Assembly (NCBI GenBank): GCA_007693585.1
Contig: REDH01000136.1
Span: 1 to 44,397 of the forward strand
Source: Deltaproteobacteria bacterium
GTDB taxonomy: Bacteria; Myxococcota_A; Bradymonadia; REDH01
Length of the DNA: 44,397 bases
Direction: 5' to 3'
A program made the translations under genes and the position numbers. Below the pieces are notes generated by a model. It did not search any database. It was not told where the DNA came from and saw only the letters and a list, made by a program, of their open reading frames with translations. Shown in pieces: positions 4,414 to 44,397 of this stretch (its first letter is position 1; each line of letters starts with the position of its first letter).

Positions 4414-5952
4414 ATGAAGCGACGAGACTTCCTGAGGAGAGCGGGCCAGGCCGGGCTGTCGGGCAGCGTGCTCGCCGCGTGCGCTGGAGACGACGACGCC
4501 CCCGCAGACACCTCCCTGCGCTCCGGCGTCCCCACGGAGGAGTCGTCGCCATCGGCCTCCGGGGCCTCCACGACCGCGGAGGTCCATTCCACCGGGGACG
4601 TGGACTCCACCGGCAAGGCCGCCGAACCCATCGAGGTGACGAAGAGCCCCTGGGTTCACCTGCACGGCCCGAACACCGCGCTGATCCGCTTCGAGAGCCT
4701 GGATGCGGACCCGGCGCAGGTGTCTGTCGCCGTGGCCGGAACGATGGCCGCCCGCGACGAGCTGCGGGAGCTGGAGACCACGGTGAGCGAGGAGTACGTC
4801 GACTTCGAGTGGCCGCCCAACAATGCGCTGCGCCTCGATCTCCCCGACGTGCCCGACGACTACGCCGTGCACGAGGTGCTGCTCGAGAACCTGCCGGCCG
4901 GCGAACGGGTGGACTACGAGATCCGGTCGCATGGCGAGGTGATCCACGAAGGGCACTTCCGCACCGCGCCCGCCACGGGCACGTCATCCCGGGTCGTGTG
5001 GATCTCCGACACGATGTTCCCCAAGAGCGGCGATGTGCTGCCCCGCGCGCTCGAGGCCGGCCCAGACCTCGTCCTCCACGGCGGGGACATCCAGTACCAG
5101 ACGAACCCCTTCGACACCTGGGCCGGGTTCTTCGACACCTTCGGGCCCCTGTTCGGAACGGCGGCGGTGCACCTGTGCATCGGCAACCACGAGTACGAGG
5201 ACCAGGACGAGTTCGACCTCTTCTACCGACGGCTCTTCGAAGGGCAGGGCGATTCGGGCGGAACCCTCGACTACCACGCCTTCACGTGGTCCGGGGTCCG
5301 GTTCCTCATGCTCAACTCCGAGGTCGACTTCGACGAGCCGGGCGAACAGTACGCCTGGGCGCAGGCCGAACTGGAAGCCGCCGACGCCGACCCGGACATC
5401 CTCTACAGCGTCGCGGCCTTCCACCGGCCGTTCTTCACGTTCAGCCGCTCCGGGCCCCGCCTGGGTACCCGCGAGATCTGGCATGGCCTCTTCCTCTCGC
5501 ACGACGTCCGGCTCGTGCTCACCGGACACAACCACTGCTACGAGCGGTTCGTCGTGAACGGCCTGACCTATATCATGGACGGCGGCGCCGGCGCCCTGAC
5601 CTATGCGATCGATCAGCGTATCGACGAGTTCACCGAGGCGGAGATCGCCACGCGCAAGAGCGCCCAGCGAAGCCACGGATGCACCGTCATGGACATCGAC
5701 GAGACCGGGCGAATCACAGGGTACAGGGTCAACGAGCACGGGGATGTGCACGACAACTGGATCGTCGATGGCCCACGGCAGGACGACCCGCCCGGCACGG
5801 AACCGGGCGGCACGGAGCCGGGCGGCACGGAGCCGGGTGGTACGGAGCCGGGTGGTACGGAGCCGGGTGGCACGGAGCCGGGTGGCACGGAGCCGGGTGG
5901 CACGGAGCCTGGCGGCACGGAGCCGGGTGGTACGGCGTCGGGCGCCGCCTGA
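4414..5952 (+). CDS. Tat-exported metallophosphoesterase lipoprotein with GGTEP repeat tail
   Basis: A 512-residue calcineurin/purple-acid-phosphatase-like metallophosphoesterase. The ATG has a GGAGG site eight bases upstream. The N-terminus has a twin-arginine motif (RRDFLRR) followed by a lipobox LAAC (Cys23), so it is probably a Tat-exported lipoprotein. Metal-site motifs are present: Asp199 in WISDTM, Asp225 in GGDIQ, Asn258-His259 in GNHEY, His337 in FHRPF, and His372/His374 in GHNHCYER. The first motif is D-x-M rather than D-x-H, as in purple-acid-type enzymes that use a different ligand set. An N-terminal beta-rich region (about 65-190) resembles the Fn3-like domain of such phosphatases. 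Residues from about 461 onward are tandem GGTEP repeats, probably a flexible surface spacer. The substrate is unknown. Confidence 0.88.
   Translation: MKRRDFLRRAGQAGLSGSVLAACAGDDDAPADTSLRSGVPTEESSPSASGASTTAEVHSTGDVDSTGKAAEPIEVTKSPWVHLHGPNTALIRFESLDADPAQVSVAVAGTMAARDELRELETTVSEEYVDFEWPPNNALRLDLPDVPDDYAVHEVLLENLPAGERVDYEIRSHGEVIHEGHFRTAPATGTSSRVVWISDTMFPKSGDVLPRALEAGPDLVLHGGDIQYQTNPFDTWAGFFDTFGPLFGTAAVHLCIGNHEYEDQDEFDLFYRRLFEGQGDSGGTLDYHAFTWSGVRFLMLNSEVDFDEPGEQYAWAQAELEAADADPDILYSVAAFHRPFFTFSRSGPRLGTREIWHGLFLSHDVRLVLTGHNHCYERFVVNGLTYIMDGGAGALTYAIDQRIDEFTEAEIATRKSAQRSHGCTVMDIDETGRITGYRVNEHGDVHDNWIVDGPRQDDPPGTEPGGTEPGGTEPGGTEPGGTEPGGTEPGGTEPGGTEPGGTEPGGTASGAA
5794..5943 (+). repeat. Ten-unit 15-bp tandem repeat encoding GGTEP
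   Basis: Ten in-phase units of the form GGYACGGAGCCGGGY run to the end of the metallophosphoesterase gene. The first unit (GGAACC) and the last (GCGTCG) are diverged, while central units are near-identical. This is a coding minisatellite whose unit number could vary between strains without frameshift. Confidence 0.95.
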
Positions 5953-5973
5953 GCATTCGCGGGCGTTCAGGCG
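5946..5973. terminator. Bidirectional hairpin between convergent genes
   Basis: Inverted repeat CGCCTGA/TCAGGCG lies between the metallophosphoesterase and EgtD genes. The stop codons of both genes (TGA at 5950-5952 and its complement at 5967-5969) form part of the stem. Position and symmetry fit a shared terminator, but no T-tract is present. Confidence 0.5.
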
Positions 5974-6929
5974 TTGGTGGTGAGGTACTGCACGCTGAAC
6001 CAGCCGGATGCGTCGGTGAAGACGTCCTGGACGTGGAAACCGGCCTGCAGGGCCAGCTTCTGGAAACGCTCGAGGGTGTACTTGTAGGAGCACTCGGTCC
6101 GGATGGTCTCGCCGGCGCGGAAGTCGAAGGCGTGTTGCCCGAGGGAGACCCGCTGGTCGATCAGGCTCTCCAGGTGCATCTCGATGCGCTGGTGTTCGTC
6201 GTCGAAGAAGGCGAGGTGCCGCCACTGATCGAGGTCGAAGTCGGTGGCGAACTCGCGGTTGAGCCTGTGCAGCATGTTGAGGTTGAAGGCGGCGGTGGTG
6301 CCATCGGGGTCGTTGTACGCGTGCTCGATGACGTCGGTGTCCTTGTGGAGGTCGACGCCGATGAGGAGCGCGCCGTCCGGCCCGACCAGGGACCGGATTC
6401 GCGCGAGGAAATCGGCGGCTTCCGGGGGGTGGAAGTTGCCGATGGTCGAGCCCGGGTAGTAGGCGACGGTGCGTCTCGGGGGACGGGGTGGCTCCGGGAG
6501 GTGCAGCGGCTGGGTGTAGTCCGCGGCGAGGGGGAGGACCGGCACGTCGGGATGGAGCCTGCGGAGGGCCTCGGCGCTGCGCTCGAGATGTTCCGCGGAG
6601 ATGTCGACGGGGACGTAGGCGCACGGCGTGTGGTCAATGGCGCGGAGGCTGTCGAGGAGGTATCGGGTCTTGAGGCTGCTTCCGCTGCCGAACTCGACGA
6701 GGAGCGCGTCGGGCCCGACGAGGCGTGCGACGGCCTCCCCGTGCTGTTCCATGATCCGGATTTCGCAGCGGGTGGGGTAGTACGCGTCGAGCCGGGTGAT
6801 CGCATCGAAGAGTGCGGATCCGTCCTCGTCGTAGAACAGCTTGGCCGGGAGGATGCGCGGGGACTGGCCGAGACCGCGCAGGATCTCCTGGAGCGTGTTG
6901 TCTGCGGTGCTCCGTTCGGTCGCGGTCAT
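5967..6929 (-). CDS. egtD: EgtD-like L-histidine N-alpha-methyltransferase
   Basis: A 320-residue protein of EgtD length and architecture. EgtD trimethylates histidine to hercynine with S-adenosylmethionine, the first step of ergothioneine synthesis. Recognisable segments are the N-terminal PRILPAKLFYDEDGSALF, the region AYYPTRCEIRIM, the SAM-binding segment LVEFGSGSSLKTRYLL, and the family motif YYPGSTIGNF. ATG at 6929 has an AGGAA ribosome site. It lies downstream of the rhodanese gene on the same strand with an 83-base gap and could be co-transcribed. No EgtB sulfoxide synthase, EgtC or EgtE is in the window, so the rest of the pathway must lie elsewhere or the product is hercynine or a related betaine. 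Confidence 0.92.
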   Translation of the reverse strand: MTATERSTADNTLQEILRGLGQSPRILPAKLFYDEDGSALFDAITRLDAYYPTRCEIRIMEQHGEAVARLVGPDALLVEFGSGSSLKTRYLLDSLRAIDHTPCAYVPVDISAEHLERSAEALRRLHPDVPVLPLAADYTQPLHLPEPPRPPRRTVAYYPGSTIGNFHPPEAADFLARIRSLVGPDGALLIGVDLHKDTDVIEHAYNDPDGTTAAFNLNMLHRLNREFATDFDLDQWRHLAFFDDEHQRIEMHLESLIDQRVSLGQHAFDFRAGETIRTECSYKYTLERFQKLALQAGFHVQDVFTDASGWFSVQYLTTNA

Positions 6930-7012: not shown

Positions 7013-7375
7013 TCAGTCGGCGGGTTCGCGCGAGGTGGGGAGGCCGGCTTCGTTCCAGGCGATCATGCCACCGGTGAGGTTGTAGTAGTCTCCGCCGCGT
7101 TGCCGCGCGAGGAACTCGCAGGCGCGTGCGCTGCGTGCGCCGCTCCTGCAGATCATGAGCACGGGTCGGTCGTCGGGGAACTCGTCGGCTCGTGCGGGGA
7201 CGGTGCCGACGGGGATCAGGGCAGCGCCTTCGATGTGTCCGAGCTCGCCGACGAACTCGTCGTGTTCCCGGACGTCGACGAGGTGAAACGACTCCAGCGT
7301 TCGTTCTGCACTATGGACATCGATTTCGGCGAAACCGTAGGGTGTGGGGGTTCCGATGGGGGTGTGGTCGCTCAT
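7013..7375 (-). CDS. Single-domain rhodanese-like sulfurtransferase
   Basis: A 120-residue rhodanese-homology protein. The catalytic loop is CRSGARS with Cys76 as the predicted persulfide-bearing residue. Upstream landmarks VDVREHDEF and GHIEGAALIP and the C-terminal NLTGGMIAWNEAGLP are typical of GlpE/PspE-type proteins. ATG at 7375 follows AGGAGAACTCC. Such enzymes move sulfane sulfur between thiosulfate, persulfides and acceptor thiols in the cytoplasm. No signal peptide is visible. It lies between a small outer-membrane-like gene and egtD and near two YeeE/YedE transporters, which supports a role in handling imported sulfur; that link is inferred from context. Confidence 0.9.
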   Translation of the reverse strand: MSDHTPIGTPTPYGFAEIDVHSAERTLESFHLVDVREHDEFVGELGHIEGAALIPVGTVPARADEFPDDRPVLMICRSGARSARACEFLARQRGGDYYNLTGGMIAWNEAGLPTSREPAD

Positions 7376-7496: not shown

Positions 7497-7991
7497 TCAG
7501 AAGCGGATGACGAATCGGGCTTCGGGATACCAGTCGGAGCATCCGAGTCGGCATCCGCCGAGGAAGCTTTCGTGGACGATGCCGAGGGCGATGAGGATGG
7601 GACCGTTGGCTCCGAGGTAGGCGCCCCCGCGGAGTCCGACGCTGCTGAGGTTGTCCTGGTCGGTGATGAACCATCGTCGGTAGAAGGTGCCGATGTAGGG
7701 GTGGATGACGGGGACGAACCAGAGGACGTACTCGGCGCCTGGGGTGAGGCGCGTGATGCGGTAGGGTCCTCCGAACCATGCGTCGACGTCGAGTCCGAGT
7801 TCGAGGCCGTCGACGACGTTGTATCCTCCGCCGAGTCCGACGATGGTGGTGCGTTCGCCGTCGATGACTCCGAAGCCGAGTCCTGCGGAGACCCTGACGC
7901 TGCCCTGTTGCCAGGGGTGGGCGTGTGCGCGGGTCGAGCCGAGGGGGAGGAGCAGGAGGAGGGCGAGTGCCGTGGGGAGGAGGAGCCGCAT
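7497..7991 (-). CDS. Small outer-membrane beta-barrel-like exported protein
   Basis: A 164-residue protein with no clear family assignment. I chose the ATG at 7991, which opens a classical signal peptide (hydrophobic Leu/Ala run followed by AHAHPW) removable near residue 25. The mature part alternates polar and hydrophobic or aromatic residues, has many Gly and Tyr/Trp, and ends in Phe (ARFVIRF). These are features of an outer-membrane beta-barrel with a C-terminal insertion signal. It contains two Cys close together near GGCRLGCSDW, which could form a disulfide or bind metal. It sits between the sigma-54 activator and the rhodanese gene on the same strand. A barrel or porin role is inferred only from composition. 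Confidence 0.65.
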   Translation of the reverse strand: MRLLLPTALALLLLLPLGSTRAHAHPWQQGSVRVSAGLGFGVIDGERTTIVGLGGGYNVVDGLELGLDVDAWFGGPYRITRLTPGAEYVLWFVPVIHPYIGTFYRRWFITDQDNLSSVGLRGGAYLGANGPILIALGIVHESFLGGCRLGCSDWYPEARFVIRF

Positions 7992-8066
7992 GGAGTGCAC
8001 CGTGGGTGGGTCGCGCGGTCGGGGCGCGGTCATGTGGAGGGGAAGCAGGAATCGTGCCTTTTGTGG

Positions 8067-9029
8067 TCAGGGCTGTTCGTTGAGCCGTCTCCAGAGGGTG
8101 GTTCTGCTGATGCCGAGGAGCTTTGCGGCTTCGCTTCGGTTGCCGCCGGCCTCGAGGAGTGCCTGGAGGATCCGCTTGCGTTCGGAGTCGCCGCGGTGGT
8201 CATCGTGGTGTCCGGGCGGGGGTTCACCGCGGAGTTCGGGGGTGAGGTCGGCGAGCTGGAGGATGTCTCCTTCGCCGACGACGGTGGCGTATTCGATGAC
8301 GTTTCGGAGTTCGCGGATGTTTCCGGGCCAGGCATAGCTCAGGAGGGCATCCATGGCAGCGCGTTCGATGCCGCGGATGGGCCGGGGCCCCTTTCGGGAG
8401 AGCTGTTCGATGAAGTGCCAGGCGAGGAGTGCGACGTCGTCGCGTCGTTCGGAGAGCCTGGGGAGGTAGAGGGGCACGACGCGGATTCGGTACATGAGGT
8501 CCTCGCGGAAACGTCCTCGTTCGACCTCGTCGCGGAGGCTGCGGTGGGTTGCGGAGAGGAGACGGACATCGACCTTGACGCTGTCGGTGCCTCCGACGGG
8601 GACGAAGGTCTGTTCCTGGAGGACGCGGAGGAGGCGGGCCTGCAGGTCGAGGGGGAGCTCGGCGACTTCGTCGAGGAAGATGGTGCCCTGGTCGGCGAGT
8701 GCGAAGAGCCCCTTTCGGTCGCGGACGGCGCCGGTGAAGGCGCCGCGGACGTGTCCGAAGAGTTCGGAGGCGAGGAGTTCCGGGGTGAGGGTGGCGCAGT
8801 TGATGGCGCGGAAGGGGCCGCTGGCGCGGTTGCTCAGGTCGTGGAGGGCACGCGCGACGAGCTCCTTGCCGGTTCCGGTCTCTCCGCGGATGAGGACGGA
8901 GGCGTTGGAGCGTGCGACGCGTTCCATGAGCCGGAAGAGTTCGTGCATGCAGGGTGCGCCGGTGAGGATGCCGTGGAAGTCGTCCGGGCGCCGTGCGGGT
9001 CGTTCGAGGATGTCGCGGGTTCTGGGCAT
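8067..9029 (-). CDS. Sigma-54-dependent transcriptional activator without sensor domain
   Basis: A 320-residue bacterial enhancer-binding protein. It has a central AAA+ domain from about residue 20, with Walker A GETGTGKE (49-56), the sigma-54-contacting GAFTGA loop (96-101), Walker B GTIFLDE (to 121) and an arginine-rich RFREDL segment. A short linker leads to a Fis-type helix-turn-helix (about 278-320, GNRSEAAKLLGISRTTLWRRL). There is no N-terminal receiver, GAF or PAS domain, so activity must be controlled in another way, as in PspF. ATG at 9029 has GGAA upstream; the open frame further upstream overlaps the intergenic regulatory DNA and is unlikely to be translated. It is divergent from a gene with a strong -24/-12 promoter, which it probably activates. 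Confidence 0.93.
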   Translation of the reverse strand: MPRTRDILERPARRPDDFHGILTGAPCMHELFRLMERVARSNASVLIRGETGTGKELVARALHDLSNRASGPFRAINCATLTPELLASELFGHVRGAFTGAVRDRKGLFALADQGTIFLDEVAELPLDLQARLLRVLQEQTFVPVGGTDSVKVDVRLLSATHRSLRDEVERGRFREDLMYRIRVVPLYLPRLSERRDDVALLAWHFIEQLSRKGPRPIRGIERAAMDALLSYAWPGNIRELRNVIEYATVVGEGDILQLADLTPELRGEPPPGHHDDHRGDSERKRILQALLEAGGNRSEAAKLLGISRTTLWRRLNEQP

Positions 9030-9070
9030 GGTGGATTCCGTTGCAGGTGTTTCCGTGCCGGGTTGAAAAT

Positions 9071-9087
9071 GTTTCATCATGTGAAAC
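9071..9087. promoter_or_regulatory. Palindromic upstream activator site candidate
   Basis: GTTTCATCATGTGAAAC is a perfect 6-bp inverted repeat with a 5-base spacer. A further TGAAAA half-site lies just to the left (9064-9069). Its centre is about 118 bases upstream of the start predicted from the -24/-12 promoter, a usual distance for an enhancer bound by the Fis-type HTH of a sigma-54 activator. Its 42-base distance from the activator gene start also allows autoregulation. Confidence 0.65.
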
Positions 9088-9170
9088 GAAAGTGCAAGGG
9101 GCGCTCTTCCGGGTGCGCCCATGCAACGAGAAGGGGGTGCGGATGGTGGATGGACGGGGCGCTTCGGTGC

Positions 9171-9186
9171 TGGCATGAACCGTGCT
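9171..9186 (+). promoter_or_regulatory. Sigma-54 (-24/-12) promoter
   Basis: TGGCATGAACCGTGCT matches the TGGCACG-N4-TTGCW consensus, with the invariant GG and GC correctly spaced. The predicted start is near 9197, about 62 bases before the ATG of the first YeeE/YedE gene. This also rules out the upstream in-frame ATG at 9121 as the translation start. Confidence 0.8.
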
Positions 9187-9210
9187 TGTGAGTTCCGGGC
9201 GAGACAGCAG

Positions 9211-9226
9211 GCCCCATGTGCGGGGC
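9211..9226 (+). promoter_or_regulatory. Small hairpin in the 5' leader of the sulfur transporter operon
   Basis: GCCCC/GGGGC stem of five base pairs with a 6-base loop, inside the predicted leader between the sigma-54 start and the ribosome site. It could stabilise the message or be incidental in GC-rich DNA. Confidence 0.3.
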
Positions 9227-9258
9227 TCCACTTCCCTTCCCGGTTCGCGAGGAATCCC

Positions 9259-9696
9259 ATGGAAAACTTCACGCCGTTCGCCTCCACCATCGGAGGCCTT
9301 CTCATCGGGCTCGCCGTGGCGGCGATGCTTCTGTTCAGCGGTCGGATCACCGGCATCAGCGGGATCTACCGTGGTGCGCTCACGGGTGACGGTGGCGAGG
9401 GCGGCTGGCGCTTCGCCTTCGTCGGAGGTCTGGTTGTGGGGGGCCTGCTTCTGGCGCTGCTGTACCCGGGGGCGTTCGCGCTGCCGGAGGGTGCGCCGTT
9501 CGACACCGGTCGCTCCGTGGCGGCGGTGGGTGTGGCCGGTCTGCTGGTCGGGTTCGGCACCCGGCTCGGCAGTGGCTGCACCAGTGGTCACGGCATCTGC
9601 GGGATCAGCCGGTTCTCGCAGCGCTCGATCATTGCGACGGTGACCTTCATGGCGACCGGTGCGGTGACCGTCTTCCTGTTCAACCACGTGCTCTGA
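9259..9696 (+). CDS. YeeE/YedE-family sulfur transporter, first half (PmpA-like)
   Basis: A 145-residue membrane protein with about four transmembrane segments. It carries the conserved cysteine motif [17 protein letters not shown] of the YeeE/YedE (sulf_transp) family. Members import thiosulfate (YeeE/TsuA) or are linked to selenium and sulfane sulfur metabolism; in many proteobacteria the protein is split into two half-size genes, as here. ATG at 9259 follows GAGGAAT. It is the first gene after the sigma-54 promoter and ends 10 bases before its partner. The cysteines are expected to relay the sulfur species through the membrane; the exact substrate is not readable from sequence. Confidence 0.9.
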
Positions 9697-9706
9697 GGAG
9701 GTCCCC

Positions 9707-10156
9707 ATGCGTCACACCATCGTTGCCTTCCTGTCGGGTCTGCTGTTCGCCATCGGTCTCGGCATTTCCGGGATGACGAATCCCTCCAAGGTCATCGGCT
9801 TCCTGGACTTCGCCGGAAGCTGGGATCCGAGTCTCGCGTTCGTGATGGGCGGAGCCCTTCTGGTCAATGTCATCGCGTTCCGTCTCATCATGCGTCGGCG
9901 GTCCCCGCTGTTCGCACCGTCGTTCTCGCTGCCGACCCGGAACGACATCGATGCCCCGCTCGTGGGTGGGGCTGCCCTGTTCGGCATCGGGTGGGGTCTG
10001 GGCGGTTTCTGTCCCGGTCCGGGACTTGCGTCGGCGGCGACGCTGCACGTGATGCCGCTGGTCTTCGTTGGTGCCATGACGGTGGGAATGCTGGTCTACG
10101 GGCTGGTGATGGATCGAAGGGCTGCGGCCTCGTCACCTCCGGGAGCGGTGTCCTGA
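9707..10156 (+). CDS. YeeE/YedE-family sulfur transporter, second half (PmpB-like)
   Basis: A 149-residue membrane protein with four predicted helices, homologous to the other half of YeeE/YedE transporters. Key segments are GISGMTNPSKVIGFLD near the N-terminus and the cysteine motif GWGLGGFCPGPGLAS. ATG at 9707 is preceded by GAGGAGG. It is closely spaced with the preceding half and probably forms a heteromeric pore with it. The combination of one [10 protein letters not shown] half and one GGFCPGPG half is the standard pairing. Transport of thiosulfate or another reduced sulfur compound is the likely role by family. Confidence 0.9.
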   Translation: MRHTIVAFLSGLLFAIGLGISGMTNPSKVIGFLDFAGSWDPSLAFVMGGALLVNVIAFRLIMRRRSPLFAPSFSLPTRNDIDAPLVGGAALFGIGWGLGGFCPGPGLASAATLHVMPLVFVGAMTVGMLVYGLVMDRRAAASSPPGAVS

Positions 10157-10289: not shown

Positions 10290-11969
10290 ATGGAGGGTCT
10301 TCTGACAGCCGAGCGGAGAGAGCGCATCAGCCGGAACCTGTTGGCGGGCACGACCACGGCAGTGGTTCTGGTGCCGCAGGCGATGGCGTATGCGCTCGTG
10401 GCCGGTCTGCCGCCGATCCACGGCCTCTACGCGTCGTTGCTTCCGCTGATCGTGTATGCGGTGCTGGGCCGGTCTCGGCAGCTCGCCGTCGGCCCCGGGG
10501 CCATCGACACACTCCTCGTCGGTGCGGCGCTGGGCGCCATGCACGTCGTCAACGAGCAGACCTATGCGGCGTGGGCCGCCCTGCTCGCGTTGATGGTGGC
10601 TGTGATCCAGGGTCTGCTGGGCCTGCTGCGGGCGGGGTTCCTCGTGAACTTCCTTTCGCGGCCGGTGATCAGCGGCTTCACCACCGCGGCGGCATTGACG
10701 ATCGCGCTGAGCCAGGTGCGTCACCTTCTCGGATTCGAGGCGCCGGGGGGAAGCGGATTCCTGGAGATCGCCGGGAACGTCGTCCGTCACATCGCGGACT
10801 TCCATCCGGCGACGGCGCTGGTGGGGCTGACGGTGGCGGGGGCGCTGGTGTGGCTGAAGCGATGGCGCAAGGGTTTTCCGCGGGCGCTCTTCGTGGTGGC
10901 GGTCTCCACGGTGGTGGCTGCGCTGCTGGACCTCGAGGCGCGAGGGGTCCGGGTGGTGGGCGACATTCCGGCCGGGCTTCCGTCCTTCGCGCTCCCCCCG
11001 CTGGAGCTCGAGACGGTGCTGGCGCTCCTGCCGACGGCGGTGACGCTGGCGCTGATCGGCTATCTGACCATCATCTCCATCGGGCAGACGTTCGCGAACC
11101 GGAACGGGTACGAGATTCGGCCCAACCGCGAGCTGGTCGCGATCGGGGGGGCGAACCTCGCCGCCGGCCTGACACAGGGGTTTCCGGTGTCCGCGAGTTT
11201 TTCGCGGTCCGCGGTGCACGCGGGCGGGGGCGCGAGCAGTCCGTATGCCCTGATCGTGGTCGCGGCGTGGGTGGGGCTGACCCTGCTGCTGCTCACCGGT
11301 CTGCTGCAGCAGCTCCCCACGGCGACGCTTGCGGCGATCATCATCACGGCGGTGCTCGGGCTGACGGACTTTGCCGAGGTTCGGCGACTGGCGCGGGTGA
11401 AGAGGGCCGACATGTGGCTGCTGCTGATCACGTTCGCGGCCACGCTGGGGATCGGCATCGAGCAGGGGATTCTGGTGGGTGTGGCGGCCTCGCTCATGCT
11501 CTTTCTCTACCGGACGACGCGTCCGCACGCTGCGGTGCTGGGTCGGCTCGGGGACAGCACGGACTACCGCAACGTGCGCAACCACCCTGGGGCGGTCACC
11601 ATCCCGGGGGTGTTGATCGTGCGCATCGACGCGCAGTTCTACTTTGGCAACGTCACGTTCCTGCGGGACTTCCTGCGTGGGCAGGAGCGGGCGGTGGAGG
11701 GGACCCTGCGGGCTGTGGTGCTGGAGGCGTGCAGCCTCAACCAGCTCGACAGCAGCGCGGATGCGGCGTTGCGAGAGCTGGCGGCCGAGTACGCGTCGCG
11801 AGGGGTGGTCCTGAAGCTCGCCAGCGTGAAGCGCCCGGTGGAGCGGGTGATGCGGGCCTCGGGGCTGTGGCATCTCGTCGGCGACGCGAACGTTCACATG
11901 AACGTGCACGACGCGGTTCGGTCGCTGGCCCTGGACCCCGGGGCCGTCGAGGCGTCGGGGCGGGGCTGA
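10290..11969 (+). CDS. SulP-family anion transporter with STAS domain
   Basis: A 559-residue SulP (SLC26) transporter. ATG at 10290 is preceded by AAGGAGCGGG; the open frame extends 25 codons further but lacks a better start. The membrane part begins at LLAGTTTAVVLVPQAMAYALVAGLPPI, the signature of SulP helix 1, and runs to about residue 425. A cytoplasmic STAS domain follows from about 437 to the end (VLIVRIDAQFYFGN, LEACSLNQLDSS). Family substrates include sulfate and bicarbonate. It lies 133 bases after the YeeE/YedE pair in the same direction. Co-transcription from the sigma-54 promoter would make this a sulfur-oxyanion import set, but bicarbonate cannot be excluded. Confidence 0.93.
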   Translation: MEGLLTAERRERISRNLLAGTTTAVVLVPQAMAYALVAGLPPIHGLYASLLPLIVYAVLGRSRQLAVGPGAIDTLLVGAALGAMHVVNEQTYAAWAALLALMVAVIQGLLGLLRAGFLVNFLSRPVISGFTTAAALTIALSQVRHLLGFEAPGGSGFLEIAGNVVRHIADFHPATALVGLTVAGALVWLKRWRKGFPRALFVVAVSTVVAALLDLEARGVRVVGDIPAGLPSFALPPLELETVLALLPTAVTLALIGYLTIISIGQTFANRNGYEIRPNRELVAIGGANLAAGLTQGFPVSASFSRSAVHAGGGASSPYALIVVAAWVGLTLLLLTGLLQQLPTATLAAIIITAVLGLTDFAEVRRLARVKRADMWLLLITFAATLGIGIEQGILVGVAASLMLFLYRTTRPHAAVLGRLGDSTDYRNVRNHPGAVTIPGVLIVRIDAQFYFGNVTFLRDFLRGQERAVEGTLRAVVLEACSLNQLDSSADAALRELAAEYASRGVVLKLASVKRPVERVMRASGLWHLVGDANVHMNVHDAVRSLALDPGAVEASGRG

Positions 11970-12187: not shown

Positions 12188-12208
12188 AGGACCTTCAGGA
12201 GGGGTCCT
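12188..12208. terminator. Candidate hairpin at the end of the mrp operon
   Basis: AGGACC/GGTCCT stem of six base pairs with a 9-base loop that contains the mrpG stop codon. It could terminate the mrp operon or the facing sulfur operon. No T-tract is seen. Confidence 0.35.
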
Positions 12209-12596
12209 GACGGACCTCGCTGCCGGGGACGAGGGTCGGGCTGTGGGTGCTGTAGTACTCGGCGAGCTCGTCGCGGCGGGTCTCCTTCCACAGCTTGACG
12301 CCGGAGGCGTAGCTTGCGCGGCCGATGACGTGGGCGGCGACGGGCGCGGTGAGGATGAGGAAGGCGACGCCGGCGAGGGCGCGGGTGGTCATGCCGACTT
12401 CGCCGAAGTAGACGGCGACGGCGACGAGCACGAGCCCGGTGCCGAGGGCGCCGGCCTTGGTGGCCGCGTGCATGCGGAGCAGGAGGTCGGGCAGTCGCAG
12501 GACGCCCACGGATGCGACGATCATGAAGAAGGCGCCGGTGAGGGCGAGCGCGACGACGATGATGTCGAGGATGGGGTGGCCGGTGGAGGTGGTCAT
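12195..12596 (-). CDS. mrpG: Mrp antiporter subunit G
   Basis: A 133-residue MrpG/MnhG/PhaG-family membrane subunit with three helices. The typical block is FMIVASVGVLRLPDLLLRMHAATKAGALGTGLVLVAVAVYF. ATG at 12596 overlaps the mrpF stop (ATGA) and has a GGGAG site. The hydrophilic C-terminal tail (WKETRRDELAEYYSTHSPTL) is a little longer than in minimal homologues. It is the last gene of the mrp operon. MrpG is required for assembly and activity of the multi-subunit Na+/H+ antiporter. Confidence 0.93.
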   Translation of the reverse strand: MTTSTGHPILDIIVVALALTGAFFMIVASVGVLRLPDLLLRMHAATKAGALGTGLVLVAVAVYFGEVGMTTRALAGVAFLILTAPVAAHVIGRASYASGVKLWKETRRDELAEYYSTHSPTLVPGSEVRQDPS

Positions 12597-12916
12597 GGCG
12601 AAGCTCCCGGGCCGGGGTTTCGGGCCTTTCGTCGGCGGTTGTCGATCTCGTAGTACCGCGCGAAGGCGACGGTGCCGAGGAAGGCGATGAGGGCGAGGGC
12701 GATGGCGGCGTCGAGGTAGACGCTTTCGCCGGTGACGAGGGAGTAGAGGGCCATGAAGCCGACGGCGAGTACGCCGAGCAGGTCGACGGCGACGACGCGG
12801 TCGCCGAGGGTGGGGCCCTTGAAGACCCGGTAGAGGGCGGTGAGGATGGCCAGGCTGACGAGCGCGAACACGACGAGCATGGCGATGTCGAGGTTGCTGT
12901 TGATCTCGCCGATCAT
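12593..12916 (-). CDS. mrpF: Mrp antiporter subunit F
   Basis: A 107-residue MrpF/MnhF protein with three predicted helices and the family segment YRVFKGPTLGDRVVAVDLLGVLAVG, which carries a conserved membrane Asp. ATG at 12916 overlaps the mrpE stop by four bases and follows GGAGG. The tail after the last helix is basic and Pro/Gly-rich. Its place between mrpE and mrpG matches the canonical operon order. It forms part of the MrpEFG section of the antiporter complex in the cytoplasmic membrane. Confidence 0.93.
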   Translation of the reverse strand: MIGEINSNLDIAMLVVFALVSLAILTALYRVFKGPTLGDRVVAVDLLGVLAVGFMALYSLVTGESVYLDAAIALALIAFLGTVAFARYYEIDNRRRKARNPGPGASP

Positions 12917-13392
12917 TGGAAGACCTCCATGATGCGCCGCTCGAAGCCCTCCTTGATTTCGCGCCGTGCGGCCTCGACATCGTCGACGTACATGCCGTGG
13001 ATGAAGAGGGTGGAGCGGTCCTCGGAGACGTCGAGGCTGAGGGTGCCCGGGGTGAGGCTGATCAGGTTGGCGAGCAGGCTGATCCCGAGGTCGCTCTTCA
13101 CGTCGAGCGGGACGGAGAAGACGGCGGCCTCCATCCGTCGCTCGACGTCGGGGTGCAGGACATCGATGGCGACGCGCACGCTGGACTTGAGCAGCTCGAC
13201 GACGAAGAAGACAGCGAGTGCGACAGCGCGAAACAGCTTCGAGAAGTATCTGGTTTCGGGGAACAGCGGCCGCGAGAAGAGCAGGACGAGGTACCCGATC
13301 ACGAAGCCGACGGCCAGGCCGCGCGCGGTGACGTCGCTCATGATGAACGCCCAGATCAGGGCGAGGAGCACGTTCCAGAGCAGGAGGTTCAT
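12913..13392 (-). CDS. mrpE: Mrp antiporter subunit E
   Basis: A 159-residue MrpE/MnhE protein. Two or three N-terminal helices (NLLLWNVLLALIWAF, GLAVGFVIGYLVLLF) precede the conserved cytoplasmic part with SLTPGTLSLDVSEDRSTLFIH and a helical C-terminus. ATG at 13392 overlaps the mrpD stop (ATGA) and has GGAGG upstream. The longer open frame upstream is antisense-like and was not used. The subunit is needed for stable assembly of the antiporter and lies in canonical order between D and F. Confidence 0.93.
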   Translation of the reverse strand: MNLLLWNVLLALIWAFIMSDVTARGLAVGFVIGYLVLLFSRPLFPETRYFSKLFRAVALAVFFVVELLKSSVRVAIDVLHPDVERRMEAAVFSVPLDVKSDLGISLLANLISLTPGTLSLDVSEDRSTLFIHGMYVDDVEAARREIKEGFERRIMEVFQ

Positions 13393-14897
13393 GGTGCTGC
13401 CTCCAGGACGGCGTGGATGTATCGTTCGGGTTCGAGGAGCTCCTCGGCGGCGGTCATGGCGATCTCGATGACGGGCTCGGCGAAGAGTCCGATGGCGATG
13501 GTCATGAGGGTGAGGGCCGCGACGGGGATCATCATGGTCAGGGGAACCTTCTTCTTCTGGATGTGTTCGGGGACATCGCCCTCGGGATGCTTCTTCCAGA
13601 AGGCGTACATCCAGATCTTCATCATGGAGTAGAGGGTGAGGAGCCCGACGAAGATGGCGAACGCCGCGGGGATCCAGCGTTCGGCCTGGAAGGCGGAGAA
13701 GATGACGGTGAACTTGGCCCAGAATCCCCATAGGGGGGGCACTCCGGCGAGGGAGAAGGCGGAGAGCAGGTTGAAGGCGGCGAAGATGGGGAAGTACTTG
13801 TAGAGTCCGCCGAGCTTCTTGAGCTCATAGGACCCCATGAGGTGGTGTCCGATTCCTGCGGCGAGGAAGAGGTTGGCCTTGATGATGATGTTGTGGGCGA
13901 CGTAGAGGACGGCGCCGGCGAGGGCCATGGGGGTGTAGAGGGCGAGTCCGAGGGTCATGTAGCCGATCTGGCTGATGATGTGGATGGAGAGGATCTTTCT
14001 CCACTCGAACTGGCTGACGGCGCCGAGGACGCCGATGAACATGGTGAGGACGGAGAGCCAGAGGATGATCTCGTGGGTCCAGGCGATGTCCTCGGTGAAG
14101 ATGAGGGTGAAGACGCGGATCATCACGTAGGCGCCGACCTTGGTGAGCAGTCCGGCGAAGATCGCCGAGACGGCGATGTTGGGCACGTGATAGGAGGCGG
14201 GGAGCCAGAAGAAGAGGGGGAAGAGGGCAGCCTTCATGCCGAAGGCGATGATGAAGAGGATGGCGATGACGGTGACGAGTCCGGGTTCACCGATGTCGTG
14301 GATGCGGTGGGCGATGTCCGCCATGTTGAGGCTGCCGGTGATGCCGTAGAGGATGGACACACCGGCGAGCAGGATCGTGGAGGCGACCACGTTCATGAGG
14401 ACGTACTTGAAGGCGCCGTCGAGCTGGATCTTTCGGCCGCCGAGGACGAGGAGGACGAAGGATGCGATCAGCATCACCTCGAACCAGACGAAGAGGTTGA
14501 AGAGGTCTCCGGTGAGGAATGATCCGCAGACGCCCATGACCATGACGTGGGTCAGGGGGTAGTATCCGAAGTGTTCCTCGCGTTCGCCGACGGCGCCGAG
14601 GGAGTAGACGGCCACGGCGAGGGTGAGGATGCCCGTGAGGACGAGCATGGTGGCGGCGAGGTGGTCGGCGACGAGGGTGATGCCGAAGGGTGCGGGCCAG
14701 TTGCCGAGATAGGTGACGAGGATGCCGCTCTCGCGCACTTCCATGAAGAGGAGGATGCCGGCGATGCAGAGTGCGATGGCGCCGACGACGCCGGTCCAGC
14801 GCTGTGCGACGTTGCTCTTGTAGAAGAGCACGGCGATCGAGGCGCTGAAGACCGGGATCAGCAGGGGCAGGACGAGGAGGATATCGGCGGAGAGCAT
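13389..14897 (-). CDS. mrpD: Mrp antiporter subunit D
   Basis: A 502-residue NuoM/NuoN-like proton-conducting subunit with about 14 transmembrane helices. Family segments include GDLFNLFVWFEVMLIASFVLL, with its key membrane Glu, and FPLFFWLPASYHVPNIAVSAIFAGLLTKVGAY, with a conserved Lys. A GTG directly precedes the ATG; I chose the ATG because the GAGGAGG site is seven bases from it, against four from the GTG. The ATG shares one base with the mrpC stop, suggesting translational coupling. Together with MrpA it is thought to carry out cation/proton exchange across the cytoplasmic membrane. Confidence 0.93.
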   Translation of the reverse strand: MLSADILLVLPLLIPVFSASIAVLFYKSNVAQRWTGVVGAIALCIAGILLFMEVRESGILVTYLGNWPAPFGITLVADHLAATMLVLTGILTLAVAVYSLGAVGEREEHFGYYPLTHVMVMGVCGSFLTGDLFNLFVWFEVMLIASFVLLVLGGRKIQLDGAFKYVLMNVVASTILLAGVSILYGITGSLNMADIAHRIHDIGEPGLVTVIAILFIIAFGMKAALFPLFFWLPASYHVPNIAVSAIFAGLLTKVGAYVMIRVFTLIFTEDIAWTHEIILWLSVLTMFIGVLGAVSQFEWRKILSIHIISQIGYMTLGLALYTPMALAGAVLYVAHNIIIKANLFLAAGIGHHLMGSYELKKLGGLYKYFPIFAAFNLLSAFSLAGVPPLWGFWAKFTVIFSAFQAERWIPAAFAIFVGLLTLYSMMKIWMYAFWKKHPEGDVPEHIQKKKVPLTMMIPVAALTLMTIAIGLFAEPVIEIAMTAAEELLEPERYIHAVLEAAP

Positions 14898-15265
14898 CAC
14901 TTGTCCTCCTCGGTCGCGATGGGCTCGGCGACGCGCATGCCGTCCGGGTCGAGGGTGTCGAGCTCCTGCCAGGAGCGGTAGGCGAGGACCAGGGCGAAGG
15001 CCAGCATGCCGAATCCGATGACGATGGCGGTGAGCACGAGGGCCTGGGGCAGCGGGTTGGCGTAGTCCCCCACCGGTGCGGTCTCCGGGTAGGGGATGAT
15101 GGCGGAGGCCCCCCGGGTGAGCCCACCCATGGTGAAGAGCGTGAGGTTCGCGGCGTTTCCGAGGACCACGAGGCCGATGACCATCTTCACGATGGAGCGG
15201 CGGGTCAGGAGGTATGCGGCGATGGCGAACAGGATGCCCGCGACGACGGCGAGGAGTGGTTCCAT
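14897..15265 (-). CDS. mrpC: Mrp antiporter subunit C
   Basis: A 122-residue NuoK-like subunit with three helices. Typical segments are GLVVLGNAANLTLFTMGGL and NPLPQALVLTAIVIGFGMLAFALVLAYRS, which hold the conserved polar residues of MnhC/NuoK. ATG at 15265 is one base after the mrpB stop, with AGGAGG upstream. The C-terminal tail is acidic. It is a core membrane subunit of the Mrp complex. Confidence 0.94.
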   Translation of the reverse strand: MEPLLAVVAGILFAIAAYLLTRRSIVKMVIGLVVLGNAANLTLFTMGGLTRGASAIIPYPETAPVGDYANPLPQALVLTAIVIGFGMLAFALVLAYRSWQELDTLDPDGMRVAEPIATEEDK

Positions 15266-43945: not shown

Positions 43946-44397
43946 GGAAACACCGCGCTGAGGAACGTGGACAGGGCCAGCGCCACCAGCGCCACCCGAT
44001 ACGCCTGACCAAGCCGCTCCGGCTCGGCCGCCCCCCTCCACTGAAGCAGCGCCAGAAACACCGTCACCGCCAGAAAGCCCGAGATCCCGATGCGCCAGAA
44101 GTAATCGATCCGCGCGCTCTCCAGGATCAGCAGCGGGTCGTACGGATCCTCCGTCAGCGCCGCCCGCGTGCGGTCCACCCCGTAGAACAGGCAGCCCACC
44201 GTCGCCGCACCCAGCACGGCCACGGCGATCCGCGCGCGAGCGCCCGCTGTATGCGGGTCGGCCCCCGTCCCTGCTGCGACCGGTGCTTGCGCCGCCGGCT
44301 CCGGCTCCGCCGCCGCCCCTGCCGCGCGCCGCGCTTGCGCCGCCGCGTCCACCGCGGTCGCTGCGGTATCCGGTGCCTTCGTCGCCAACGTCGCCCC
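43942..44397 (-). CDS. Membrane protein, partial at the window edge
   Basis: At least 148 residues, open to the right edge of the window, so the true start is probably outside. The N-terminal ~50 residues are Ala/Pro-rich and low complexity. Then follow three probable helices (IAVAVLGAATVGCLFYGV, WRIGISGFLAVTVFLALL, ALVALALSTFLSAVF) with a loop LTEDPYDPLLILESARIDYF. Family unknown. It overlaps the start of the four-helix gene by four bases, suggesting that the two form a small membrane complex served by the same transcript as the ABC pair. Confidence 0.65.
   Translation of the reverse strand, partial: GATLATKAPDTAATAVDAAAQARRAAGAAAEPEPAAQAPVAAGTGADPHTAGARARIAVAVLGAATVGCLFYGVDRTRAALTEDPYDPLLILESARIDYFWRIGISGFLAVTVFLALLQWRGAAEPERLGQAYRVALVALALSTFLSAVFP

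Follow-up and report, generated by a model that had tools for sequence, protein, structure and literature searches.

FisR of Cupriavidus pinatubonensis and Acinetobacter baumannii is a known case in which the oxidation of sulfide and persulfide is under sigma-54 control (PMC7315123, PMC9774590, PMC12170894). The yedE1E2 genes are not among the published FisR targets; in A. baumannii they are controlled by BigR (PMC7315123, PMC9774590). BigR/SqrR-type ArsR repressors control the yeeE-yedE-pdo genes (PMC7315123, PMC12170894), and YedE1E2 itself is an importer of zero-valent sulfur, which needs one cysteine in each of its halves (PMC10812762). A further case of sigma-54 control is that of sox by TspS/TspR in Acidithiobacillus caldus (PMC6335251). 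The first-pass annotation of the DNA analyzed here had considered the control of sulfane or thiosulfate import by a dedicated sigma-54 activator as not well described. This holds for YedE1E2 itself, for which the only regulators found are ArsR-type repressors. It does not hold for sigma-54 control of sulfide oxidation by FisR (PMC7315123, PMC9774590) or of sox by TspR (PMC6335251); both are already known, as is the control of YedE1E2 and the dioxygenase by ArsR repressors. A search of the open-access literature, with subscription journals outside its scope, found neither a sigma-54 activator of YedE1E2 nor a paper on the activator clade described below.

The locus lies in a window of 44,397 nucleotides, which is the whole stretch of DNA that was analyzed. 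Its intergenic region 9030-9258 separates a minus-strand gene for a sigma-54 activator from a plus-strand run of genes for YedE1, YedE2 and a SulP permease. On the basis of sequence comparisons we consider it likely that this region controls a small sigma-54 regulon that serves to take up and detoxify zero-valent (sulfane) sulfur, and that the divergent, sensorless activator exerts this control.

The gene set in question (YedE1, YedE2, persulfide dioxygenase) is functionally the same as that under the ArsR repressors BigR and SqrR. However, these repressors act as a thiol switch on an ordinary promoter, whereas the window has a putative activation of a sigma-54 promoter. An ArsR arrangement is found at the locus of C. 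oxalaticus (L183). Like the characterized YedE1E2, the pair in the window consists of two short YedE proteins side by side with invariant cysteines (Cys104/Cys101 there, Cys107/Cys102 here); the regulation differs, and the window adds a SulP permease gene after the pair. TspS/TspR also provides sigma-54 control in sulfur metabolism (sulfur oxidation in that case) and uses a palindromic UAS, but it is a two-component system with sox targets and the UAS TGTCCCAAATGGGACA. The PspF/pspABCDE system is similar in that a sensorless sigma-54 activator is divergent from its target operon and binds upstream sites near the gene that encodes it; its target genes are different, and PspF is only a distant AAA+ match to the window activator.

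The intergenic region

Table 1. Position of the features of the sulfur locus in the window
Feature	Position	Strand	Basis
Sensorless sigma-54 activator, 320 aa, AAA+ with GAFTGA and Fis-type HTH	8067-9029	-	Pfam PF00158 (1.7e-66), HTH_8
Putative UAS palindrome GTTTCA-TCATG-TGAAAC	9071-9087	none	motif search, register shared with L160
Predicted -24/-12 sigma-54 promoter TGGCATGAACCGTGCT	9171-9186	+	weight matrix and consensus match
YedE1 (YeeE/YedE half, Sulf_transp), Cys107	9259-9696	+	Pfam
YedE2 (DUF6691), partner half, Cys102 in GGFCPGPG	9707-10156	+	Pfam
SulP-family anion permease with STAS domain	10290-11969	+	Pfam, NCBIfam

The annotation had proposed a near-consensus -24/-12 promoter in front of the YeeE/YedE pair, a perfect GTTTCA/TGAAAC palindrome about 118 bases upstream of the predicted start and an activator encoded by the divergent gene. 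All three elements were recovered (Table 1). The promoter TGGCATGAACCGTGCT scores 15.6 bits, which makes it the top sigma-54 match on both strands of the 44-kb window (runner-up 12.4 bits); the scan covered the window and used a weight matrix written from the sigma-54 consensus. The match to the consensus is without a mismatch, and its GG and GC are spaced by 10 bp. The end of the element is 72 bp away from the YedE1 (YeeE) ATG, and the distance between the predicted start at about 9197 and this ATG is 62 bp. Since 2.4 matches to a -24/-12 string with at most one mismatch are expected by chance per window, the promoter element alone is only suggestive. The genome contains one match to an rpoN-type sigma-54 factor (PF04552, 7.1e-60). 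A search of the region for a sigma-70 promoter of the activator gene and for an RNA family found neither.

The palindrome has the form GTTTCA-N5-TGAAAC, and its centre, at 9079, precedes the predicted start by 118 bp. It is unique in its exact form among the 4,971,832 bases of the genome that were searched; three matches with at most one mismatch occur genome-wide, and 0.27 matches with at most two mismatches are expected per window. Together with an extra GTTTC half-site at 9049-9053 it forms an array of three half-sites, whose positions counted from the -24/-12 site are -122, -100 and -88. The combination of promoter and palindrome is confirmed at the level of sequence as lying far above chance, because it is backed by comparative evidence and by a second copy in the same genome.

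A sigma-54-like site of 12.4 bits (AGGCACGATTCCTGCT) is located at 8044-8059 on the minus strand, just past the stop of the activator gene. It precedes by about 50 bp the start of a gene for a small protein with a signal peptide (7497-7991), which heads the rhodanese-EgtD run. The site may be a chance match, since upstream half-sites are absent.

A second promoter and the loci of relatives

The same pair of sites was found in front of an unlinked operon of this genome (contig C60, locus L160). A one-mismatch palindrome at 44182-44198 is followed by a consensus sigma-54 site, TGGCACGAGCGTTGCT, at 44283-44298; the distance between the two is 101 bp compared with 100 bp in the window. The half-sites at -123, -101 and -89, which are accompanied by two more, are in the same register as those of the window. 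The chance of such a pairing of palindrome and sigma-54 site is about 5e-4, with the identity of the gene not counted in. The gene behind this second promoter encodes a 288-aa MBL-fold protein, which matches the dioxygenase part of Blh with 342 bits as well as solved structures of the persulfide dioxygenase type (Blh/ETHE1-type fold). It remains under the NCBIfam full-length cut-off because positions 1-142 of the Blh model, at its N-terminus, have no counterpart in the protein. A SulP gene comes next, and among relatives a homologous dioxygenase gene is often located directly between the activator gene and yedE1. The switch had been assigned to one transporter operon; apparently yedE1-yedE2-sulP and the unlinked persulfide dioxygenase-sulP operon form a small regulon.

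We define a composite promoter as a sigma-54 site with at least two half-sites. A scan of the GC-rich genome with this composite pattern gave 3 matches at 2 promoters versus 2 matches in the reversed control, counts which by themselves are near background; as a genome-wide regulon finder the pattern is clean in this genome only and close to background in the relatives.

The relatives compared are probably Myxococcota, and judged by them the genome itself would belong to the same phylum; neighborhoods of up to 12 kb each were examined. Of the 77 relatives, 55 have yedE1 and 37 encode an activator of the clade (E<=1e-95). The genes for the activator, dioxygenase, YedE1, YedE2, SulP and rhodanese recur together in variable order. 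The same-family relatives G001-G005 have neither the activator nor the sites. The annotation had pointed to the orthologous intergenic regions as the place to find the same palindrome. Promoter and half-sites are indeed conserved there, but the exact 17-bp palindrome is absent from most of the loci. Unbiased k-mer counting showed that what is conserved is the GTTTC/GAAAC half-site, at spacings that vary but keep the phase.

In this motif-free count, made between activator and promoter, TGAAACA was the most enriched 7-mer (10 occurrences vs 0.35 expected from dinucleotide shuffles). Within the 450 bp ahead of 39 activator genes GTTTCA/TGAAAC reaches a density of 2.41/kb, which is 8.5 times that in the rest of these loci (0.285/kb). 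The distances between half-site pairs upstream of sigma-54 sites peak at 10-12 and 21-24 bp, which corresponds to one and two helical turns. The vector length of this phasing is 0.57 compared with a maximum of 0.31 in 2000 random sets, with three near-identical loci left out; since the loci are related, the counts for enrichment and phasing are not fully independent. The phasing agrees with binding on a single helical face.

Composite promoters are located upstream of yedE1 at 19 of 37 loci in activator-positive genomes (window included), whereas none was found at 11 loci in activator-negative genomes (Fisher p=0.0017) or at 27 loci of a named, mostly proteobacterial set. About half of the activator-positive loci are without a composite site at this threshold; in some of these a sigma-54 site is present, but half-sites are fewer or missing. 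The pattern had 8 independent matches at a distance of up to 5 kb from yedE1 vs 0.22 expected. L060 (G047) and L072/L074 are cases in which phased half-sites accompany several sigma-54 sites of one sulfur locus, on both strands, so that the activator may drive whole clusters.

An alternative explanation is that the sigma-54 promoter is real but driven by another activator, and that the palindrome is the site of a different regulator, for example an operator for the divergent gene. The genome encodes 12 other sigma-54 activators, which is why the pairing of activator and promoter is judged here by linkage and co-occurrence; furthermore, the palindrome is nearer to the start codon of the activator (42 bp) than to the transporter. 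However, from genome to genome the half-sites go together with the activator clade, and they are missing at the YedE1E2 loci of activator-negative genomes. They also recur at the same distance upstream of an unlinked promoter, and the recognition helix of the activator (SR.TLWR) is conserved within the clade. We consider this explanation unlikely and favor control of the promoter by the divergent activator.

The activator clade

The start of the activator was set at MPRTRDILERP according to an alignment of 39 clade members. A less likely in-frame start further upstream (MMKHF, at about 9082) would overlap with the palindrome. AAA+ and Fis-type HTH are the only Pfam domains in the protein, with none ahead of AAA+. 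The maximum-likelihood tree supports the 39-member clade with 100/99. The first split in this clade separates five members with a PAS-like N-terminus from 34 members in which the sensory domain is absent and only a short N-terminal tail precedes AAA+. The simplest reading would be a single loss of the sensory domain in the sensorless lineage, although this depends on the rooting. A possible intermediate between the sensor-bearing and the sensorless form is L178 (activator ORF around 5028); its PAS-like N-terminus contains the Cys cluster CLKSNRCERCMVGC, which resembles that of FisR. The L178 activator adjoins genes for a rhodanese, a dioxygenase-like protein and YedE1.

A lineage-specific conserved cysteine was not found in the 39-member alignment, the only conserved Cys being the generic NCA site; nor did the neighborhoods of the relatives contain a conserved sensor or inhibitor gene beside the activator. 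The description of the locus as a complete switch was overstated, because the activator has no sensory domain; it consists of AAA+ and Fis-type HTH, and the sequence shows no signal input.

The window activator could also be a plain orthologue of FisR, the persulfide-sensing sigma-54 activator of sulfide oxidation genes. The logic is alike, in that FisR is divergent from its own targets (sqr, pdo, tauE) and lies beside genes for persulfide dioxygenase and transporter (PMC7315123), and the Cys cluster in L178 adds to the similarity. FisR, however, has an N-terminal regulatory domain, with the sensing Cys in Cupriavidus; the FisR-type protein of C. metallidurans (L184) carries such a domain with three Cys, and the window activator has none. 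The L184 protein is 39% identical to the window activator, which is below AtoC (48%) and ZraR (46%), and its upstream repeats are of the TGCCAA type instead of GTTTC half-sites. In the tree, which holds one FisR-type sequence, it falls outside the 39-member clade; this placement is only moderately firm because of the long branch. Orthology with FisR was rejected on the combined grounds of tree, identity, domain content and upstream repeats, and we regard it as quite improbable. The FisR of A. baumannii is a comparable case, as it lacks the sensing Cys (PMC7315123).

The possibility that GC-rich DNA resembles sigma-54 elements by chance, which would agree with the 2.4 near-consensus matches expected per window and with composite counts near the reversed control, is contradicted by the comparative data and very improbable in view of the top score, the right place and orientation, the unique palindrome, the second regulon copy, the conservation and the helical phasing.

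Proposed regulation and sulfur neighborhood

The annotation had left the imported substrate as either sulfane sulfur or thiosulfate. Zero-valent (sulfane) sulfur seems likelier and thiosulfate less so, because the transporter belongs to the split YedE1+YedE2 type, in which each half has one key Cys (PMC10812762). Cys107 of YedE1 is a C in 80/80 aligned homologues, and Cys102 of YedE2 in 80/80 residues present; the two correspond to the essential Cys residues of the characterized importer. A phmmer search with the YedE1 sequence against the PDB gave no match. The SulP permease, which recurs near YedE1E2 in relatives, is probably encoded in the same operon as yedE1-yedE2 (134-bp gap).

In the model that we favor, the sensorless enhancer-binding protein would bind the phased GTTTC/GAAAC half-sites, which precede the -24/-12 promoter by about 85-125 bp. 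It would then form an AAA+ ring, loop to the sigma-54 RNA polymerase and open the yedE1-yedE2-sulP promoter. The same activator would switch on the unlinked persulfide dioxygenase-sulP operon via the identically laid-out site. YedE1E2 would import zero-valent sulfur, and the dioxygenase would oxidize the resulting persulfide to sulfite. What was observed is the sites, how they are conserved and phased, the second target, the domain composition of the activator and its clade; binding, activation and substrate are inferred.

PspF is known to repress its own gene. By analogy, binding of the window activator may hold down its own gene, because the palindrome lies 42-58 bp from its start codon and in several relatives half-sites occur within the first bases. 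Since the protein has no sensory domain, its control would come from a partner, which the regulon itself may encode, or from its own level. The Psp system suggests an inhibitor that acts on the activator; an inhibitor of the PspA type was not found in the neighborhood of the activator gene.

A broader reading is plausible but tentative. A sigma-54 clade distinct from FisR could govern sulfane-sulfur import and oxidation across the phylum. Because most of its members have lost the sensory domain, the sulfur signal would have to enter by an undescribed route, for example by way of a product of the regulon that would hold the activator back for as long as this product is not occupied by sulfane sulfur. 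The known reactive-sulfur sensors SqrR, BigR and Cupriavidus FisR act through cysteines in the regulator itself. A whole lineage apparently runs the same physiology via an activator without a sensory domain or a lineage-specific conserved cysteine. With half-sites, promoters and target genes mapped, the system is directly testable in culturable relatives, and it provides a ready definition of a sigma-54 regulon for the annotation of their genomes.

Further genes in the window surround this locus. A single-domain rhodanese (7013-7375) and the ergothioneine histidine methyltransferase EgtD (5967-6929; NCBIfam 388.6 bits vs a cut-off of 290.9) are encoded downstream of the activator on the same minus strand and constitute a further link to sulfur. 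At 5800-5950 on the plus strand, a series of GTEPG repeats (Gly-Thr-Glu-Pro-Gly) makes up the end of a metallophosphoesterase gene. On the other side, several overlapping genes for small membrane proteins at 12195-15265 on the minus strand are located beside the sulfur cluster; according to their ORF translations alone, they probably form an Mrp-type Na+/H+ antiporter operon.
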